Below the pieces are notes generated by a model, which searched no databases, was not told the DNA's origin, and saw nothing but the letters and a program-made list of their open reading frames with translations. A DNA stretch of 64,000 bases from Leucobacter massiliensis. Lineage in GTDB: Bacteria > Actinomycetota > Actinomycetes > Actinomycetales > Microbacteriaceae. The DNA is taken from positions 1 to 64,000 of the forward strand of contig NZ_MWZD01000012.1 in NCBI RefSeq assembly GCF_002982315.1, written 5' to 3'. Of the stretch, positions 9,870-60,824 are shown one piece after another. Within the stretch, counting starts at the first letter, position 1, and every line of letters starts with the position of its first letter. Made by a program: the position numbers and the translations under genes.

Positions 9870-12796
9870 CTAATTTGCTCCGGAGCCGGGATGGGTGAAG
9901 AAACCGCCGGCCGCGCCCCCCCCCCCGCCGCGCTCGCGCCCGCCTCTGAGCCGTCGCTCGAACCGGAGCCGGCAGCAGCTGCCGTGCCACCGCCGGCATC
10001 CGCGGTCGCGCCGCCGGCATCCGCCGTGCCGCCCCCGGGAAGGCTCACCGGCTCGGCCGCCGAGGGCGCGACGAGGCCGTCGCGATACCCGTCGTAGCGC
10101 ACCGACACCTCGGTGACGCCCGCGGGCACGCGCACCGCGGCGACGGCCGCCGCAGCATCGGCGTCACCCGCCACGGCATCGGCGTCACCCGCCTCCGCCG
10201 AGCCGGGTGCGGCGCGCTCCGCCGGCTGCACGGTGACCGTCTCGCGCCACGAGCCGCCGGCGAAGGTCACGGTGCCGGCCACCTCTCCCCCGTCGAGCGC
10301 GGAGACCCGCGCCGTGAGCTCACGGCCCTCCACGGAGACCTCCGTCCGCGACTCGGCCGGCCGCACCTCGCTCCACGCGTGCATCGCATCGAGCACCTGC
10401 CGGGTGACGCTGACGAAGGCGCCGTGGCGCGGGCTCGGCGGCAGCCCGCCGCGCTCGCGCACGCTCCACTCCGGCTGCTGCGAGATCCGCTGCCCCCGCT
10501 CGCTCGCGGCGAGCGCGGCGCCGCTCGTCACGAAGGCGCGGTAGCCGCCGTCGCCGTAGTTGTCGACGAGGAAGACATAGCCGTCGCCGTCCTGGTTCGC
10601 CGGGTCGCCCTCGTTGAGGCGGATGATCTGCGGGCCCTCGCCGGCGTGGCCGGTGATCGGGGTGGTCATGGCGGTGTCGACGAGCTGCCAACCGGTCGCG
10701 GGATCCGCGTCCCAATCGGAGCGGGTCGTGGGCGCCGTGAGCACCCGGGAGCGCTCCATGAAGATGTCCTTGCCGCGCTCCAGTCCGTCTGCGGCGCCGC
10801 CCTCCTCGTTCTTCGTGAAGCGATAGTACGTGTCCCCGATCTTCTGCACGGTCGAGTCGATGCGCGCGAAGCCGGTGTCCTGCCACGTCTCGGGCGGCGA
10901 GGTGAAGCTCACGAAGTCACGGGTCAGCACCGCGAACATGCGCGCGTGGCCGGGCCCCGAGGTGTGCGCCTCGTCGTCGTACATGCGCGAGGCGAAGAAC
11001 ACCACGTACGACTGCAGTTCGTCATCCCAGTAGGCTTCGGGCGCCCACGTCATTCCGGCCTCGGGCCGGTTGATCGTGATGCCGCCGTTCTCGTCGCCGT
11101 TCGTGCGGCTCCAGTGGACGAGGTCGCTCGACTCCCAGACGTTCACCTTGAGGCTGCCGTTCGACTGGGCCTCGCCCCAGCTCGTGCCGCAGCCGATGCA
11201 GAGGTCGGTGGCGATCATGTAGTACGTGTCGCCGCCGTGCGAGCGCAGGATGTACGGATCGCGGTGCCCGGTCGTGTCGGCGGAGTTGTCCACGATCGGC
11301 CGCCCGTCGTTCACCTCTGAGAAGGAGAAGAAGTCGTTGCCCTCCGTGGCGGCGGCGTAGATCCGCTCGTCGCCGTCCGAGCGGAAGTACGCCGAGGCGT
11401 ATCCCGCGTCGGGCGCGGAGCGGCCGCGCTCGGCGATCGTCACGGCGTAGTCCCGGGACACGCTGCGCTCGCCGAGCTGCGCGGTCGCGGTGAGCACGAC
11501 CTCGCGGTCCCCCTCGCCGTAGGCGGGCCGGGTCACCACGCCGCCCCCCGCGAAGGGGTCGGCCATGCCCACCGCGGGCGGCGCATAGGCGGGATCCGTC
11601 GGCGTGACGAGCGCAGGATCCGAGGAGGTCCAGGTGATGCGCGAACCCTCGACGGCACCCGTGACCGCGAGCGGCAGGTGCTCGCCGCTGCGCTCCGCCA
11701 GCACGATGGCGTCGAGGTCCGCCTCGATCGACGGCGCGAGCACCGTCACCGCGAACTCGAGCCGCGCCCCGCCGGCGAGCGTCGCCGTCAGGGTCACCGG
11801 GGTGTCCACGGCGATCTCGCGCGACACGCGCCCGTCGAGCGCGACGACCGACTCATCGGAGGAGGCCCAGCCGAGGGCGACCCCGTTGACCGCGGACGGC
11901 AGGCTGAGCTTCCGCGTGACCCGGTCGAAGGAGGGGTTCGATCCGAGCACGATCGCGCCGAGGTCGAGGCGCAGGATGCCCTCGCTGGCCGCGGCTTTCT
12001 CCGCGGCGGTGGGCTGCGCGGCGGCGAGCTGCTCGGCGCTCAGGGCCTCGTCCCAGAACTTCACATCGCTCACATCGCCGACGAAGAGCGGGTCCCCCGC
12101 GTAGAGCGAGCGGCCGAGATACCCGAGCACCTCGCCGGAGGGGATGATGCTCGACAGCTCATACGGGTGCTGCACCGTGGAGATCTGCTCCCCGTCGCGA
12201 TACACGGTGAGGCGGTCCCCCTCGCCCACCATGGTCAGGGTGGTGAAGCCGGCACCCAGACCGCCGCCGGCCGGGAGGCGCACCTCGCCGTTCCCTCCGT
12301 CGCGCTTCACGCGGATCGCGGAGAGCACCTGATCGCCGTAGCCGCTCTGCGCACTGCGCGGGCTGAGGAAGACGTGGTTGCCGAGCTCGCTCGTGTTCCA
12401 GGGTCCGACACCGTCGCCGAGCACCCAGCCGAAGTGGTTGGCGGCGGTGCGCGTGGTGACGGTGTACTCCACGGTGAAGTCGTTGTCGCTTCCCGTCACG
12501 ATGCCCTGCGGCAGCGCCGCGTAGCCGTCACCGGCGAAGCGCAGCACCTCGTCCTCGCCCGCGCGCACGAAGGAGCCGTCGCCGAAGCCGGTGAGCGAGG
12601 CGTGGCGCTCGTTGCCGGACACGTCGAGCAGGGTTCCGCCGCGATGCGACATGTCGTAGTGGGCGCTCGGCTGCGGCGCTTCGGCGGCCGCGGCCGTGAT
12701 GCCGAAGCCGCCGAGCGGAACCGCGAGCGCCGCCGCGAGGACGAGCCCGAGCGCGCGGCGGCGGGCGGTACGGGGCGAACGGGGATGCTGGCTCAT
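9863..12796 (-). CDS. Secreted multidomain glycoside hydrolase family 43 protein (arabinan-active?), C-terminus apparently disrupted
   Basis: The 977-aa protein begins with a signal peptide (twin Arg-rich start, hydrophobic 14-35, AAAAEA cleavage). It continues with a LamG/concanavalin-like domain (about 40-215) and two Ig-like bacterial domains (about 240-440). The GH43 beta-propeller (about 445-790) has the GHRDPYILRS aspartate block, WAPEAYWDD and RIDSTVQKIGDTYYRF. A further Ig-like region and a long Gly/Ala/Ser linker follow. GH43 enzymes remove arabinose or xylose from plant polysaccharides; next to araBAD, arabinan or arabinoxylan is likely. The linker looks like a wall-spanning stalk, but this frame ends in an unconvincing IPAPEQIRC tail after a run of 11 C/G. 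A sorting signal lies 40 bp beyond the stop. Confidence 0.85.
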   Translation of the reverse strand: MSQHPRSPRTARRRALGLVLAAALAVPLGGFGITAAAAEAPQPSAHYDMSHRGGTLLDVSGNERHASLTGFGDGSFVRAGEDEVLRFAGDGYAALPQGIVTGSDNDFTVEYTVTTRTAANHFGWVLGDGVGPWNTSELGNHVFLSPRSAQSGYGDQVLSAIRVKRDGGNGEVRLPAGGGLGAGFTTLTMVGEGDRLTVYRDGEQISTVQHPYELSSIIPSGEVLGYLGRSLYAGDPLFVGDVSDVKFWDEALSAEQLAAAQPTAAEKAAASEGILRLDLGAIVLGSNPSFDRVTRKLSLPSAVNGVALGWASSDESVVALDGRVSREIAVDTPVTLTATLAGGARLEFAVTVLAPSIEADLDAIVLAERSGEHLPLAVTGAVEGSRITWTSSDPALVTPTDPAYAPPAVGMADPFAGGGVVTRPAYGEGDREVVLTATAQLGERSVSRDYAVTIAERGRSAPDAGYASAYFRSDGDERIYAAATEGNDFFSFSEVNDGRPIVDNSADTTGHRDPYILRSHGGDTYYMIATDLCIGCGTSWGEAQSNGSLKVNVWESSDLVHWSRTNGDENGGITINRPEAGMTWAPEAYWDDELQSYVVFFASRMYDDEAHTSGPGHARMFAVLTRDFVSFTSPPETWQDTGFARIDSTVQKIGDTYYRFTKNEEGGAADGLERGKDIFMERSRVLTAPTTRSDWDADPATGWQLVDTAMTTPITGHAGEGPQIIRLNEGDPANQDGDGYVFLVDNYGDGGYRAFVTSGAALAASERGQRISQQPEWSVRERGGLPPSPRHGAFVSVTRQVLDAMHAWSEVRPAESRTEVSVEGRELTARVSALDGGEVAGTVTFAGGSWRETVTVQPAERAAPGSAEAGDADAVAGDADAAAAVAAVRVPAGVTEVSVRYDGYRDGLVAPSAAEPVSLPGGGTADAGGATADAGGGTAAAAGSGSSDGSEAGASAAGGGARPAVSSPIPAPEQIRC
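9916..9926. repeat. Homopolymer C11 (G11 on the coding strand) inside the GH43 gene
   Basis: Eleven C in a row interrupt the GH43 coding sequence about 50 bp before its stop. Such tracts slip during replication and are also a common sequencing or assembly error. Shifting frame here gives either FFTHPGSGAN and a stop or a third ending, so tract length alone does not restore the downstream anchor. Confidence 0.9.
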
Positions 12797-23951: not shown

Positions 23952-25328
23952 TCATACGCCCTGCGGCATGTCCTGGAAGCGGGAGTAGTGGCCCTGGAAG
24001 GCGACGGTGACGGTGCCGGTGGGACCGTTGCGCTGCTTGGCGAGGATGAAGTCGGCTTCGCCGGCTCGTGGGCTGTCCCGGTCGCCGACGGCTTCGCGGT
24101 GGAGGAGGATGACCATGTCGGCGTCCTGCTCGAGTGAGCCGGATTCGCGGAGGTCGCTGATGGCGGGCATTTTGTCCGCGCGCTGCTCGGAGGCTCGGTT
24201 GAGCTGGGAGAGCGCGATGACGGGCACGTCGAGCTCTTTGGAGAGGAGCTTGAGGGCGCGGGAGAACTCGCTGACTTCCTGCTGGCGGCTTTCGGCTTTC
24301 TTGCCGCTGGAGAGCAGCTGGAGGTAGTCGATGACGACCATGCGCAGCCCGTGCTGCTGCTTGAGACGCCGGCATTTGGCGCGGATCTCGACGAGGGTGA
24401 GGTTGGGGCTGTCGTCGATGAAGAGCGGCTTCTCCGCGATGCGGGCCTGCGTGGCGGCGAGCTTCTGGAAGTCCCGGTTGTCGAGGGCGCCCTTGCGGAG
24501 GGTCTGCATGGGGATGGTGGCTTCGGCGGCGAGGAGCCGCATGGCGATCTCGGCGCGGCCCATTTCGAGGGAGAAGAAGACGGTGGGGGCATCGGCGTGG
24601 ACGGAGGCGTTGCGTGCCACGTCGAGGGCGAGGGTCGATTTTCCCATGGCGGGACGGGCGGCGATGATGATCATCTGCCCGCCGGCGAAGCCGTTCGTCA
24701 TGGCGTCGAGTTCGCTGAAGCCGGTGGGCACGCCGAGCATGCCGTCGGCGGCGGCGTTCGCCTTGTTGATCTCTTCGAGGGCCGCGTCGACGGCGAGCGA
24801 GAGGGGGACGTAGTCCTCGCCCTGACTCTCGCCGGTGACCCCGTAGATCTCGGACTGGGCGACGTTGACGAGGTCGATGGCCTCGCCCTCGCCCGCGTAG
24901 CCCATCTGGACGATGCGGGTACCTGCTTCGACGAGCCGCCTGAGGAGCGCTTTCTCGGCGACGATCTCGGCGTAGAAGCTCGCGTTCGCGGCGGTGGGGA
25001 CGATGCTGGTGAGCGTGTGGAGGTACTCGGCGCCTCCGGCGCGCTGCAACTCCCCGCTCTTGGTGAGCTCGTCGGTGACGGTGATGACGTCGGTGGGCTC
25101 GCCCCGGGAGTAGAGCGCGAGCACCGCCTCGTAGATGACCTCGTGCTTGGGCACATAGAAGTCGGGCCCTTTGAGGAGGCCGGTGACGTCGGCGACGGCG
25201 TCTTTCGAGAGCAGCATGCCGCCGAGCGCGCTCTGCTCTGCGAGGAGGTCGTAGGGCGGCGTGCGTTCGTGGCCGCGGGCCTCTTCCTCCGCGAAGGGAT
25301 CGCTGATCCCCAGGTGTGCGATGGACAC
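23952..25328 (-). CDS. dnaB: Replicative DNA helicase DnaB
   Basis: The 458-aa hexameric helicase has the N-terminal DnaB domain (LLAEQSALGGMLL near residue 28), a linker and the RecA-like C-terminal domain. That domain holds Walker A ARPAMGKSTLAL near residue 226, Walker B MVVIDYLQLL near 332 and the DnaB motif SRALKLLSKELDVPVIALSQ. It unwinds DNA at the fork and probably works with the DciA-type loader encoded at 43.95 kb. No intein is present. A GAAGGAG site precedes the ATG. The upstream 500 bp hold a cluster of DnaA boxes, unusual for a simple housekeeping promoter. Confidence 0.97.
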   Translation of the reverse strand: MSIAHLGISDPFAEEEARGHERTPPYDLLAEQSALGGMLLSKDAVADVTGLLKGPDFYVPKHEVIYEAVLALYSRGEPTDVITVTDELTKSGELQRAGGAEYLHTLTSIVPTAANASFYAEIVAEKALLRRLVEAGTRIVQMGYAGEGEAIDLVNVAQSEIYGVTGESQGEDYVPLSLAVDAALEEINKANAAADGMLGVPTGFSELDAMTNGFAGGQMIIIAARPAMGKSTLALDVARNASVHADAPTVFFSLEMGRAEIAMRLLAAEATIPMQTLRKGALDNRDFQKLAATQARIAEKPLFIDDSPNLTLVEIRAKCRRLKQQHGLRMVVIDYLQLLSSGKKAESRQQEVSEFSRALKLLSKELDVPVIALSQLNRASEQRADKMPAISDLRESGSLEQDADMVILLHREAVGDRDSPRAGEADFILAKQRNGPTGTVTVAFQGHYSRFQDMPQGV

Positions 25329-25449
25329 TCGCTCACTCCTTCACGTCGTCGGGGTGGTTACCGAACCATCAGACACCGGACCCCGGACATTCACCGTAGG
25401 GCCGCTGCGCGCGGGGTTCAAATGTCCGCCGGAAGCGGGGGATCGATCC

Positions 25450-25578
25450 TGTGGATAACTTCGTGGACAACTCACCCCTTCGCGCCGCGGCTTGTCCACA
25501 CGCTTGGGGACAAACTGTGGATGGCTTGTGGAGGATAGTGAGATATTCGGCCTTGATCAGGTGTTTTCAAAATCCACA
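25450..25578. promoter_or_regulatory. DnaA-box cluster upstream of dnaB
   Basis: The 517-bp gap between dnaB and rplI (25329-25846) has no gene. It holds perfect boxes TGTGGATAA (25450-25458, minus) and TTGTCCACA (25492-25500). One-mismatch boxes lie at 25462-25470 (CGTGGACAA), 25505-25513 (TGGGGACAA) and 25516-25524 (TGTGGATGG), with weaker ones at 25527 and 25570. An AT-richer stretch follows (25540-25610). It could be a DnaA-controlled dnaB promoter, a DnaA-titrating site or an auxiliary origin element. The remaining part, 25610-25790, shows nothing I can name. Confidence 0.6.
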
Positions 25579-25790
25579 GCCGAAAAGTTATTCAAGTTTC
25601 AGGTAGAACTTGAGGCTTGGGGGAGGGCGCGGGGTGTGGAGAAATCGGTGGGCAGAGGCTGTTTGTCAAGACGCACCCGCGGCCGGGCGTTTCGCGATGT
25701 TCACCGGCGGTTCGGTTCCGCAGCGCATTCGGTGCGAGCCGGTTCCGCCGGCCGCAGCACCCCCTCAGGCGCCCGCTCCGAGCGCGGACA

Positions 25791-25838
25791 CGCGAAGGCG
25801 GGGCGGGGTGCCCGAGAGCTCCCCGCCCCGCCTTCGCG
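25791..25838 (-). terminator. Hairpin terminator of the rpsF-ssb-rpsR-rplI operon
   Basis: An 18-bp perfect stem (CGCGAAGGCGGGGCGGGG and its complement) with a 12-nt loop lies 8 bp after the rplI stop. There is no U-run, as in many actinobacterial terminators. Confidence 0.75.
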
Positions 25839-25846
25839 GAGGGCGT

Positions 25847-26296
25847 TCAGCGCTGCGCGATGACCTGCAGGGTCACCTCGGCGTCGACGCCGTCGTGCAG
25901 GTGCACGATCGCGCGGTACTCGCCGGTCGTCTTGATCGACGGAACCGTGATCTTGCGCTTGTCGATCTCGCCCAGGCCCGCCTCGGACACGGCCGCGGCG
26001 ACCGCAGCCGGCTTGACGGAGCCGAAGAGACGGCCACCGGTGCCGGTCTTGGCCTGCAGGCGGATCTTGCCCTCCTGCAGCTTCGCCTTCAGCGCCTGCG
26101 CGTCCTCGACCGAGGCGAGCGCGCGGGCCTCGCGCGCCGCACGCAGCTGAGCGACCTGGGCCTCGCCACCGCGGGTCCAGTGCACCGCGTAGCCCTGGGG
26201 CACGAGGTAGTTGCGGGCGTAGCCGTTCTTGACGTCGACGACGTCACCGGCGGAACCGAGGCCCTGGACCTCGTTCGTGAGAATTACCTTCGCCAT
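25847..26296 (-). CDS. rplI: 50S ribosomal protein L9
   Basis: The 149-aa protein opens with [20 protein letters not shown] and [14 protein letters not shown], the L9 signature. A central alpha helix and a C-terminal rRNA-binding domain (TGGRLFGSV) follow. It is a structural protein of the 50S subunit near the L1 stalk. It is the last gene of rpsF-ssb-rpsR-rplI and is followed by a strong hairpin. Confidence 0.97.
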
Positions 26297-39041: not shown

Positions 39042-39179
39042 CTACGCAGTCAGCTTGGAGCGGCCCTTGCCACGGCGGGCCGCGACGATGGCGCGGCCGG
39101 CGCGGGTGCGCATCCGGGCGCGGAAGCCGTGGACCTTCGCGCGGCGGCGGTTGTTGGGCTGGAACGTACGCTTGCTCAT
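39042..39179 (-). CDS. rpmH: 50S ribosomal protein L34
   Basis: The 45-aa protein reads [19 protein letters not shown] at its start and ends GRSKLTA, which is L34 in full. It is very basic and belongs to the large ribosomal subunit. It is the first gene of the rpmH-rnpA-yidD-yidC-khpB-rsmG-parAB series and diverges from dnaA. Confidence 0.97.
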
Positions 39180-39431
39180 GACAGACTCCGTGACTTATGG
39201 AATAGATCCCCGGGCTTCGATCGCTTCGAGGAAGTCGGATTCTGGGCGAGCGGGCGCGGCCGCCGGAGGAGCGAAGCCCTCCGCGCCGCACGCGCAAGCA
39301 CGACGCACTGTTCGCACGGGCCGCCCATACAAGGTACTTACTCTACGCGAGGAGAACTGCTCCGTCAAAGCGAAGCCTCGGTCGTCGAGCATTCACCCAG
39401 GAGCGCGGCGCTCCAGACGCCGGGACTTGCC

Positions 39432-39528
39432 TGTGGAGAAAACTGTGACTAACGTGGGCGCAGGCCGTCTGCCGGTTCCGCGCCTCTCGCGGAATATCAG
39501 CGATCTCTCCGATTCTCCCTGTGGATAA
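39432..39528. promoter_or_regulatory. DnaA boxes in the rpmH-dnaA intergenic region
   Basis: The 403-bp divergent gap 39180-39582 holds no gene. It contains a perfect box TGTGGATAA (39520-39528) 55 bp before the dnaA start and a one-mismatch box TGTGGAGAA (39432-39440). Both probably serve dnaA autoregulation; the rpmH promoter should lie nearer 39200-39350, but I see no clear consensus. Confidence 0.7.
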
Positions 39529-39582: not shown

Positions 39583-41061
39583 GTGACTGATGACGAACTG
39601 CTGGACGTCTGGGCCAGTGTGACCCGCGCGGTGATGGCGGACCCCTCGGTGGGCCCGGCGAACGGCGCGCAGGTGGCTCTCGCGATGCCCCGGGGGATCG
39701 CGGCGGGCACCCTGTATCTCGCGGTCCCCTACGAGTTCACGCTGAAGCTCCTGGAGAGCCGCCTGCGGCCGGCCATCATGGCCGCCATCTCGGCGATCCC
39801 CGAGGCGGAGGAGATCGAGAACTTCGTGGTCATCGTCGACGAAGAGGCTCACCCCTCTCTCGACGCCGACCCGGTCGCGGATGAGCGGGACTCCGGCGCG
39901 CACGCCTCCGAGGGGATGCCCTCGGGATCGGGTGGGGCGCACTCCGCGGGATCCGCTCACATGGCGCGGTCCGACACGCCGCGTCCGGTGGATGAGCCGC
40001 GCCGGCGCCACGGTGCCGACGCCCCGGTCGACAGCAGGCTGAACGACAAGTACCGCTTCGACAGTTTCGTCATCGGACAGTCCAACCGCTTCGCCCACGC
40101 CGCAGCGGTCGCCGTGGCGGAGGCGCCTGCCCGCGCCTATAACCCGCTGTTCATCTACGGCGACTCCGGGCTGGGAAAGACGCACCTGCTCCACGCGATC
40201 GGCCACTACGCGCGCGAGCTCTTCCCCGAGGTCCGCGTCCGCTACGTGAGCTCCGAGGACTTCACCAACGACTTCATCAACTCGATCGCGAACAACCAGG
40301 GCGCTGCGTTCCACGCTCGCTATCGCAGCGTCGACATCCTGCTCGTCGACGACATCCAGTTCCTGGAGGACAAGGTCGAGACGCAGGAGGCCTTCTTCCA
40401 TACCTTTAACACCCTTCACGACCACAACAAGCAGGTGGTCATCACGAGCGATGTGCAGCCGAAGCAGCTGCGCGGCTTCGAGGAGCGGATGCTCTCCCGC
40501 TTCGAGTGGGGGCTGCTCACCGATATCCAGGCCCCGGATCTCGAGACACGCATCGCGATCCTGCGCAAGAAGGCGCAGCGTGAGAATCTCGAGATCGACC
40601 ACAGCATCCTCGAGTTCATCGCGAGCAAGTTCTCCTCGAACATCCGCGAGCTGGAGGGGACGCTCATCCGCGTGACCGCCTACGCGAGCCTCAATCAGCA
40701 GCGCATCGACATGCCCCTCGTGCACACGGTGCTCAAGGATCTCATCACGCTGGACGCCGACAATGAAGTGCAGCCCTCCGACATCATCAGTCGCACCGCG
40801 GAGTACTTCGATCTGTCCGTCGACGATCTCTACGGGCCCACCCGTGCCCAGCAGATCGCGACTGCGCGCCAGATCGCCATGTATCTCTGCCGCGAGCTGA
40901 CCCCGCTTTCGCTGCCCAAGATCGGTCAGCTCTTCGGGGGCCGCGATCACACGACCGTGATGTACGCCCACAAGAAGATCTCGCAGCTCATTGCCGAGCG
41001 ACGCTCGATCTACAACCAGGTGCAGGAGCTCACCACCCGGATCAAGCAGGGGTCTCGCTGA
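39583..41061 (+). CDS. dnaA: Chromosomal replication initiator protein DnaA
   Basis: The 492-aa AAA+ initiator has domain I (about 1-85), a Gly/Ser/Ala-rich linker (about 95-150) and domain III with Walker A GDSGLGKTHLL near 191 and Walker B LLVDDIQFL near 250. Domain IV carries the DnaA signature GGRDHTTVMYAHKKI near 447. It binds DnaA boxes and opens oriC. The start is GTG at 39583, giving MTDDELLDVW. Boxes lie both upstream and downstream of the gene. Confidence 0.98.
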   Translation: MTDDELLDVWASVTRAVMADPSVGPANGAQVALAMPRGIAAGTLYLAVPYEFTLKLLESRLRPAIMAAISAIPEAEEIENFVVIVDEEAHPSLDADPVADERDSGAHASEGMPSGSGGAHSAGSAHMARSDTPRPVDEPRRRHGADAPVDSRLNDKYRFDSFVIGQSNRFAHAAAVAVAEAPARAYNPLFIYGDSGLGKTHLLHAIGHYARELFPEVRVRYVSSEDFTNDFINSIANNQGAAFHARYRSVDILLVDDIQFLEDKVETQEAFFHTFNTLHDHNKQVVITSDVQPKQLRGFEERMLSRFEWGLLTDIQAPDLETRIAILRKKAQRENLEIDHSILEFIASKFSSNIRELEGTLIRVTAYASLNQQRIDMPLVHTVLKDLITLDADNEVQPSDIISRTAEYFDLSVDDLYGPTRAQQIATARQIAMYLCRELTPLSLPKIGQLFGGRDHTTVMYAHKKISQLIAERRSIYNQVQELTTRIKQGSR

Positions 41062-41464
41062 TCCGTGGCCCCGCGCTCAGGGGGAGGTTTTCCACAGATC
41101 GCGCCCTCCCTGTGGATGGATGGGGAGAACCCGGGCATTTCTGTGGAGGGATGACGCCCGCCTGTGGAATCGGCTCGCGGCCCGGATTACCGCGTCATCC
41201 CGCGGATCCCGGCTTCGCGGACCTCGCCAACAACTCACACGCGTGTAGTTCTTTAGGAAACACTGGGCGCATGAGAGTTATCCACAGTATCCACAGCTGT
41301 TAACACTGTTAACACCTCAATCTGTTTTCAGGGCACTCGATCACGCACTCCGAAAGCAGCGGCCCGGTGAGCGACGGCAGCCCCGGATGCTGCGCCCCGG
41401 CGAGTGTGCAAAGATTGTGATCCGAAGATCAGGCGCGCGCAGGTGTGCGTGGGAGGGACCTCAG
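41062..41464. other. oriC, origin of chromosomal replication (dnaA-dnaN intergenic region)
   Basis: This 403-bp gene-free region between dnaA and dnaN holds many DnaA boxes. TTATCCACA (41278-41286) is perfect and is followed head-to-tail by GTATCCACA (41287-41295). Others are TTTTCCACA (41088-41096), TGTGGATGG (41111-41119) and weaker ones at 41142 and 41163. An AT-richer segment with tandem repeats follows (41298-41345), a candidate unwinding element. Location between dnaA and dnaN is the actinobacterial norm. The dnaN promoter must also lie here. Confidence 0.88.
41298..41315. repeat. Tandem 9-mer TGTTAACAC x2 in oriC
   Basis: Two exact copies of TGTTAACAC lie head-to-tail directly after the two tandem DnaA boxes, at the edge of the AT-richer part of oriC. 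They may be part of the unwinding element or a binding site for an origin regulator. Confidence 0.8.
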
Positions 41465-42607
41465 ATGCGATTCACCGTCAACCGAGACGTGTTCAGCGAA
41501 GCCGTGTCGTTCGCCGTGAAGCTCCTCCCTCAGCGCCCCACCCAGCCGCTGCTGAGCGGAGCGCTCATCGAAGCCGAGGGCGAGCAGCTCACGGTCTCCT
41601 CCTTCGACTACGAGGTCTCCGCGCGCACCAGCGTGTCGGCGGTGATCAGCGAGGCCGGCCGTGCCCTGGTATCGGGGAGGCTGCTCAGCGAGATCGCGCA
41701 GCGTCTGCCTCACGCCGATGTGGAGGTGACGCTGCTGGAGAGCCGTGTGGAGGTGCGCTGCGGCTCCGCGTCCTTCAGCCTTCCCGCGATGCCGGTGGAG
41801 GAGTATCCGCAGATCCCCCGAGTGGACTTGGTCTCGGGTGCCGTTCCCGCCGATCTCTTCGCGGACGCGATCGCTCAGGTCTCTCTCGCCGCTTCGAAGG
41901 ACGACGTCACCCCGGTGATCACGGGCGTGCAGTTCGAGGTCAACGAGAACTCGCTCACGCTCACCGCGACGGACCGCTACCGCGTGGCGACCCGGAGCAT
42001 CGACTGGGAGGGCACGGGCGAGCAAGCGCATCTCACGGCGCTCGTCCCCTCGAAGATCGTCACCGAGGTGGGCAAGAACTTCTCCGGCGACGGACAGGTG
42101 CAGGTGTCCGTGATCAAGGACGCGGAGCGCGAGCTGATCGCATTCACCGGGGGAGCGAAGACCGTGACCTCGCTGCTGATCAAGGGCAACTACCCGCCGG
42201 TCGGCAGGCTCTTCCCGGAGCGGGTCGACAACTACGCCGTCGTCAACACGGGCGAGCTGGTCGAGGCGGTGGGCCGCGTTGGTCTCGTCCTCGAACGTGA
42301 AGCTGCGCTCCGTTTCTCCTTCGTGGAGGGCTCGGTGACCCTGGAGGCCGCGGGCACCGAGTCGGCGCACGCTGTGGAGACCGTCGACGCCCACCTGGTG
42401 GGGGACGACATGGTCGTGTCGTTGAAGCCACAGTTCCTGCTCGATGGCCTGCGTTCGACGCACGCGGAGTTCGCCCGCATCGCCTTCACCCGGACCGATA
42501 ACCCGGGGAAGCCGGGTCCGGTGCTCATCACCAGCCAGCGCAGCAAGGATGAGGCCGACGAGGAGAGCTTCCGCTACCTCTTGCAGCCGAATCTCCTGCT
42601 GCGGTAG
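41465..42607 (+). CDS. dnaN: DNA polymerase III beta subunit (sliding clamp)
   Basis: The 380-aa clamp has three repeated beta-clamp domains: MRFTVNRDVF at the start, ALIEAEGEQLTVSSFDYEVS, and the middle domain with VTPVITGVQFEVNENSLTLTATD. It ends in a short LQPNLLLR tail. It tethers polymerase to DNA. The ATG at 41465 has GGAGGGA upstream; 26 extra in-frame residues from 41387 are not clamp-like. Confidence 0.97.
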   Translation: MRFTVNRDVFSEAVSFAVKLLPQRPTQPLLSGALIEAEGEQLTVSSFDYEVSARTSVSAVISEAGRALVSGRLLSEIAQRLPHADVEVTLLESRVEVRCGSASFSLPAMPVEEYPQIPRVDLVSGAVPADLFADAIAQVSLAASKDDVTPVITGVQFEVNENSLTLTATDRYRVATRSIDWEGTGEQAHLTALVPSKIVTEVGKNFSGDGQVQVSVIKDAERELIAFTGGAKTVTSLLIKGNYPPVGRLFPERVDNYAVVNTGELVEAVGRVGLVLEREAALRFSFVEGSVTLEAAGTESAHAVETVDAHLVGDDMVVSLKPQFLLDGLRSTHAEFARIAFTRTDNPGKPGPVLITSQRSKDEADEESFRYLLQPNLLLR

Positions 42608-60779: not shown

Positions 60780-60817
60780 CGGCTGCGGCCCCGGTGTTGC
60801 CGGGGCCGCAGCCGTTT
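60780..60817 (+). terminator. Strong hairpin terminator after the rhomboid gene
   Basis: A 15-bp perfect stem CGGCTGCGGCCCCGG with a TGTTG loop is followed by TTT. It sits between convergent genes. Confidence 0.85.
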
Positions 60818-60824
60818 ATCCACA
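60816..60824 (+). promoter_or_regulatory. Isolated perfect DnaA box (TTATCCACA)
   Basis: The box overlaps the terminator tail in the 169-bp gap before crgA. It is a single site with no neighbours. Confidence 0.6.

Follow-up and report, generated by a model that had tools for sequence, protein, structure and literature searches.

DnaA acts as a transcription factor through 9-mer boxes, as at dnaA and nrdAB of Escherichia coli and at sda of Bacillus subtilis, and in E. coli it represses its own gene. Boxes also gather away from the origin: the datA cluster of E. coli works with IHF, and near oriC of Streptomyces coelicolor the clusters H69, H24 and D78 were reportedly described by Smulczyk-Krawczyszyn et al. 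in 2006. Hottes et al. are said to have identified dnaB of Caulobacter crescentus as a DnaA target in 2005.

For mycobacteria, the portions of PMC7738170 at hand report strong binding of purified M. tuberculosis DnaA at five regions, namely oriC, Rv0010c-Rv0011c, Rv0057 upstream of dnaB, Rv3843c-RVnc0040 and rpmH-dnaA, and ChIP-seq in M. smegmatis found the homologs of the same five regions. An M. tuberculosis mutant whose DnaA binds less well at dnaB showed lower dnaB expression, which is a correlation (same portions of PMC7738170). They also cite dnaB of Caulobacter crescentus, which belongs to a different phylum from Leucobacter, as a DnaA target consistent with DnaA binding upstream of dnaB. 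In Streptomyces coelicolor, a DnaA-box cluster analogous to datA represses untimely initiation, according to the available part of PMC10950094 (2024). DnaA-controlled promoters are therefore known as a kind, and the mycobacterial data mean that DnaA binding upstream of dnaB is already known.

The cluster described here lies upstream of dnaB in a Leucobacter genome. It was found in a window, by which we mean the whole analyzed stretch of 64,000 nucleotides. It resembles the mycobacterial site in lying on the same side of the same gene, the Streptomyces coelicolor cluster in being a group of DnaA boxes outside oriC in an actinomycete, and E. coli datA in lying away from oriC. Unlike E. coli datA, it lies directly against a candidate gene promoter, with which it is in phase. 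Unlike the DnaA-regulated promoters of E. coli and B. subtilis, it has the gene of the replicative helicase as its target, in an arrangement that persists throughout a class. What PMC7738170 reports, in the portions at hand, is the binding in mycobacteria; the box architecture, the lattice, the register and the wider spread come from the present analysis, and the sites in Leucobacter are predicted. The addition made here is thus the class-wide lattice, the register in which it stands with the promoter, and its reach across the class. In the literature searched, PMC7738170 was the one paper found with DnaA upstream of dnaB, and no earlier description of the lattice, the register or the class-wide reach was met; few subscription papers were covered, and this absence is weak evidence.

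The rplI-dnaB gap and its DnaA boxes

The window genome is that of a high-GC actinobacterium. Its dnaB shares 97% identity with the dnaB of a named Leucobacter, and among 60 relatives searched, 36 belong to the same genus. dnaB, the gene served by the region, encodes the replicative helicase and occupies 23952-25328 on the minus strand (458 aa, GTG start; PF03796 at 3.5e-103 and PF00772 at 3.3e-31). Its upstream neighbor on the same strand is rplI (25847-26296, open reading frame and Pfam), the gene of ribosomal protein L9. Between the two genes, both identified by Pfam, 518 bp are left, which bears out the gene-free region of 517 bp given in a preliminary description of this DNA. dnaA (39583-41061; helix-turn-helix domain PF08299 at 4.1e-30) and dnaN (41387-42607) were likewise identified by Pfam, and their coordinates put oriC about 15.5 kb from the gap. 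The earlier placement of the real oriC between these two genes, at a distance of 16 kb, holds, and oriC has boxes of its own there. A strong inverted repeat at 25792-25837, seen by eye directly after rplI, is likely the rplI terminator; it has no T tract and was negative in a terminator scan. No Rfam family reached the gathering threshold in the gap.

We defined a box as a 9-mer with at most one mismatch to TTRTCCACA, a word that also covers the DnaA box in its actinobacterial form. This form, TTGTCCACA, is listed for M. tuberculosis and S. coelicolor in the available part of PMC4285127. The gap holds two perfect and three one-mismatch boxes. Nearest to dnaB is the perfect box TTATCCACA at 25450-25458 (minus strand), 28 bp upstream of the candidate −35 element; it is the best conserved box in Leucobacter and the only one in the gap that is perfect by the E. 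coli consensus TTATCCACA. A one-mismatch box, TTGTCCACG, follows 12 bp from it at 25462-25470 (minus), which is the next lattice position. The second perfect box, of the actinobacterial form, lies in the opposite orientation at 25492-25500 (plus), and one-mismatch boxes are found at 25505-25513 (TTGTCCCCA, minus) and, more distally, at 25635-25643 (TTCTCCACA, minus), the latter in roughly the same position in most Leucobacter. Further degenerate sites of the TCCACA type, with two mismatches, were seen by eye at about 25517, 25527 and 25570. The cluster upstream of dnaB is confirmed as real. As to its extent, the number of boxes stated before was right and the claim that all lie within 75 bp was a slight overcount: the two perfect and two of the one-mismatch boxes span 64 bp (25450-25513), and the fifth lies about 120 bp further.

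Perfect TTRTCCACA is found at 11 sites in the genome of 3.14 Mb, two of them 42 bp apart in the gap. Five of the 11 fall in the window: the two upstream of dnaB and one each in the rpmH-dnaA gap, in oriC and beside crgA. The word TTATCCACA has 8 perfect sites in the 3.14 Mb; with up to one mismatch it occurs 10 times in the window versus 1.33 ± 1.18 times in shuffled sequence, and none of 100 shuffles reached 10.

Two sites elsewhere in the window genome were also noted, the open reading frames beside them being judged by eye. Four boxes, one perfect, stand at C4:173664-173827 (L006) before an open reading frame resembling a GntR-type regulator, which is followed by that of an ABC transporter. 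A perfect TTATCCACA at C9:670892 (L008) lies about 0.5 kb before the open reading frame of an NrdI-like flavodoxin, which gives a hint of DnaA control of ribonucleotide reductase.

The AT-richer segment noted earlier beside the boxes proved to be the lowest-GC 80-mer sampled in the window (25531-25610; 40% GC, sampled every 10 bp, window mean 0.71); the next lowest site is oriC (41251, 0.425). Cumulative GC skew of the window has its minimum at 10505, which is neither oriC nor dnaB, and was not informative. Upstream of the box array, alignment revealed the conserved element AAANNCCNGNTCA at 25554-25566 (minus strand), which is present in 27/30 Leucobacter loci, 43/78 of other Microbacteriaceae, 2/63 of other families and 0/20 of other classes; in the control, dnaB coding sequence, it was found in 0/171 loci, and in 1/20 in other classes. 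The alignment, inspected by eye, shows a second, AT-rich conserved element in the same position relative to the array, a dyad TCAAGTT...AACTTGA followed by TAACTT (25584-25614, minus), and it is possible that this dyad is a distal promoter or operator. A MerR-type activator was considered as a possible binder of AAANNCCNGNTCA or of the TCAAGTT-AACTTGA dyad. A further word, CGGCGTTT, was seen in 47 of the 66 Microbacteriaceae loci outside Leucobacter (L016-L081), placed by eye some 25 bp upstream of the box closest to dnaB.

Conservation of the boxes and their spacing

dnaB loci were collected from named relatives and from further genomes at the levels of genus, family, order and class, and the 450 bp upstream of dnaB were scanned. 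The 166 loci form four sets: 37 from Leucobacter, 72 other named loci (of 73, L082 being too short), 37 of the order set and 20 of the class set. The box counts over these 166 loci and the genus-level register counts leave out L119-L130. The Leucobacter loci L009-L015 and L090-L118 may contain some species twice, and the box lists of L085 and L131, and of L138 and L150, are identical. Where we speak of other Microbacteriaceae, the set is L016-L081 plus L119-L130, a few metagenome records of which are titled otherwise (L062, L076, L079).

At least one box was present in 37/37 Leucobacter, 72/72 other named, 34/37 order-set and 20/20 class-set loci. A perfect box was present in 37, 67, 22 and 12 of them, respectively, and at least three boxes within the 450 bp in 37, 62, 31 and 12. 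The first 450 bp of dnaB coding sequence, taken as a control, held no perfect and five one-mismatch boxes over all 166 loci. The real word gave 184, 286, 143 and 60 sites in the four sets, and 100 permuted consensus words gave means of 5.8, 8.7, 3.1 and 1.9 with maxima of 40, 45, 16 and 11. No box was found upstream of dnaB in L154 and L155, which belong to one family, and in L160 of another. The cluster was kept both at loci where rplI was detected in the upstream stretch and at those where it was not. In other classes of Actinomycetota, any box was seen in 9/20 loci, a perfect one in 2/20 and three or more in 2/20. Since boxes are common in the sets from Actinomycetes and scarce in the other classes, the feature goes with dnaB in the class Actinomycetes. 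The preliminary description had proposed a check in related genomes, with missing conservation as one of the observations that would speak against it; the boxes are kept upstream of dnaB.

The boxes are also ordered among themselves. Those facing dnaB outnumber those facing away by 289 to 18 in other Microbacteriaceae, 112 to 39 in Leucobacter and 169 to 64 in other families; in the window, one of the two perfect boxes faces away. Pairs of dnaB-facing boxes no more than 60 bp apart were present in 46/63 loci of other families, and their distances fall into the ranges 10-13, 20-26, 31-35, 41-45 and 53-56 bp, with nothing between. For 81 distinct per-family spacings (contributed by 26 of the 37 family labels; genus and family labels were taken from record titles and handles), the Rayleigh length at 11 bp was 0.78, a value reached by 0 of 500 random placements. 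This lattice was found without reference to any promoter call. A spacing of about 11 bp would be expected for adjacent DnaA molecules that share a single face of the helix. Arrays at E. coli oriC are similar in spacing. The lattice positions may descend from one ancestral array from which different boxes were lost in each line, rather than reflect repeated selection.

The candidate dnaB promoter and its register with the boxes

Scans for consensus sigma-70 promoters and for terminators found none in 25300-25900, and the call of a dnaB promoter therefore rests on comparison. The alignment of the 37 Leucobacter loci shows an invariant GTTATCCACA, then TTG, a 17-bp gap and TAnnnT. In the window this pattern reads TTGAAC-N17-TACGGT at 25421-25393, 28 bp past the box, with a candidate −35 element TTGAAC at 25416-25421 and, after the 17-bp spacer, a candidate −10 element TACGGT of the TAnnnT type at 25393-25398, both on the minus strand. 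The predicted dnaB promoter is thus a loose pattern, TTG plus TAnnnT.

TTG-N16-18-TAnnnT no more than 75 bp past a perfect box was found in 29/30 Leucobacter loci (0.7 in shuffles) and in 66/73 loci of other Microbacteriaceae (1.1 in shuffles); in the latter, 7/73 loci with a box gave no promoter match, and 5/78 had no perfect box in range. The distance from box to −35 element took few values. It was 17 bp in 4, 18 bp in 21, 28 bp in 3 and 29 bp in 1 of the Leucobacter loci, and 7 bp in 58, 8 bp in 5 and 19 bp in 3 of the other Microbacteriaceae. Part of this register may likewise go back to such an ancestral array; some Leucobacter, however, carry a 10-bp insertion between box and promoter, and the phase is kept. 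A match with a 17-bp spacer and its nearest box within 40 bp was present in 16/63 loci of other families, the nearest box standing at 7, 18-20 or 29-30 bp when same-facing and at 5-6 bp when opposite-facing. Counted per genus label, all 39 same-facing boxes within 45 bp were at 7, 17-20, 28-30 or 39-41 bp; opposite-facing ones were fewer and less regular (5, 5, 5, 6, 9 and 28 bp). All box-promoter pairs per genus label numbered 45; 40 permuted consensuses gave 1.2 on average and never more than 13. Several boxes beyond chance thus stand beside a predicted promoter and at fixed distances from it, in a geometry that is to be read with the finding that only 83/166 loci have the 17-bp-spacer match, half being without it, and only 23/80 genus labels a box-promoter pair.

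Possible roles of the array

Computation shows the boxes and their conservation through the class, and likewise the lattice and its register with a conserved promoter candidate. Judged from these, the region is probably a DnaA-responsive upstream control of dnaB, in which a helically phased array activates the gene. That the cluster could let DnaA control dnaB had been suggested before, and the suggestion is well supported by the class-wide conservation, the helical register with the promoter candidate and the mycobacterial binding data. In Leucobacter, DnaA would bind the high-affinity box nearest the promoter and spread, perhaps in its ATP form, over the weaker boxes about 11 bp apart, one helical turn, and mostly in one orientation. 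The oligomer would then be held immediately before the −35 element, always on the same helical face, and would most likely help RNA polymerase, presumably through contact with it, to transcribe dnaB. If the DnaA array activates dnaB in this way, helicase supply would follow active DnaA.

A datA-like site, one of the two likenesses drawn in the preliminary description, would soak up or inactivate DnaA near oriC and delay re-initiation, as datA or the Streptomyces cluster does, and its place beside dnaB would be secondary. The cluster does lie outside but near oriC. By distances worked out by hand from gene coordinates, dnaB and dnaA are about 14-17 kb apart in Leucobacter genomes that carry the two on a single contig without the contig start between them, and 29-63 kb apart in 8 of 10 genomes from ten other families that also have the pair on one contig. 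The Leucobacter dnaB region, with 3-8 boxes per 450 bp (median 5), is about as box-rich as the 420 bp after dnaA, since the counts, there 2-6, are similar. The datA-analogous cluster of Streptomyces coelicolor (available part of PMC10950094) also speaks for such a role. A sink, however, needs neither adjacency to a promoter nor register with a −35 element, yet both are conserved. The two exceptions in distance are G039, with about 130 kb between dnaB and dnaA, and G047, with about 267 kb; the locus of G039 (L151) nevertheless keeps four boxes, two of them perfect, and that of G047 (L160) is without a box. As the main function titration appears unlikely; as an addition to activation of dnaB, the array possibly titrates DnaA.

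DnaA could instead repress dnaB by a complex that shuts the promoter, as is thought for its own gene. Autorepression of E. coli dnaA is a precedent, and transcription from a second promoter among the AT-rich elements upstream could be blocked on its way across the boxes. The position of the boxes, however, is upstream of the −35 candidate and outside the core promoter, and the helical phase that is kept would be needless for blocking. The dnaA gene of the same genus is unlike dnaB in this respect. Of 20 Leucobacter loci with full upstream DNA (22 loci in all), 18 showed a dnaA promoter candidate TTGCCT-N17-TA[AG]CGT. All 18 have a box whose start lies 5 bp within the candidate, and in 15 this box is perfect; 8 loci of other families did not show this arrangement. 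In the window, between rpmH (39042-39179) and dnaA, the candidate is TTGCCT-N17-TAACGT with a one-mismatch box inside (39432), and a perfect box follows at 39520 (39427-39528 overall). A box inside the core promoter, as at dnaA, fits repression, and boxes phased upstream of the −35 element, as at dnaB, fit activation. In the portions of PMC7738170 at hand, moreover, the M. tuberculosis mutant with weaker DnaA binding at dnaB had lower, not higher, dnaB expression. Repression is a possible but rather improbable reading; activation agrees better with the geometry and with the mycobacterial mutant.

The other likeness drawn earlier, to a small origin, is not supported, and a second, minor replication origin with an unwinding element of its own is very improbable. 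In the window the DnaA boxes do stand beside the most AT-rich 80 bp sampled. The median of the lowest 80-bp GC upstream of dnaB is 0.39 in Leucobacter, 0.44 in other Microbacteriaceae and 0.54 in other families and in other classes alike (0.57-0.61 in dnaB coding sequence), so that outside Microbacteriaceae the valley is shallow and the boxes persist without it. oriC itself lies between dnaA and dnaN, the region contains a conserved gene promoter candidate, and no plasmid relative of the rplI-dnaB gap was found. Chance or drift, that is box-like words arising in AT-rich intergenic DNA, can practically be dismissed, being contradicted by the shuffles, the permuted consensus, the coding control, the other classes and the lattice randomization.

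Besides the array at dnaB, the window genome has boxes at rpmH-dnaA, at oriC and beside crgA, like mycobacteria. The last of these is a perfect TTATCCACA at 60816-60824, in the space that separates the 3' end of crgA from a rhomboid gene. In 30/30 Leucobacter loci retrieved, TTATCCACA occurs no more than 125 bp after crgA, and a scan of up to 400 bp before the gene gave no box. With Rv0011c, which we take to be crgA, the box is likely the counterpart of the mycobacterial DnaA site Rv0010c-Rv0011c. For that site, PMC7738170 states in the portions at hand that there is no obvious correspondence in other bacterial species.

Activation of dnaB by the array can also be put more broadly, in a form to which we give about even chances of being right: across Actinomycetes, a same-facing 11-bp lattice would end at a fixed face of the −35 element, and a docked DnaA oligomer would activate dnaB while it assembles. 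Together with the box in the dnaA promoter and the one beside crgA, it would form an ancient DnaA regulon close to oriC, through which DnaA lowers its own expression and raises that of the helicase.

Control of the supply of the replicative helicase by the initiator would be a basic link in the cell cycle, and one that seems to have been little tested. The phased lattice makes control of dnaB by DnaA directly testable. The box beside crgA suggests a Leucobacter counterpart of the Rv0010c-Rv0011c site, and the class-wide boxes give the binding of DnaA at mycobacterial dnaB an evolutionary frame.
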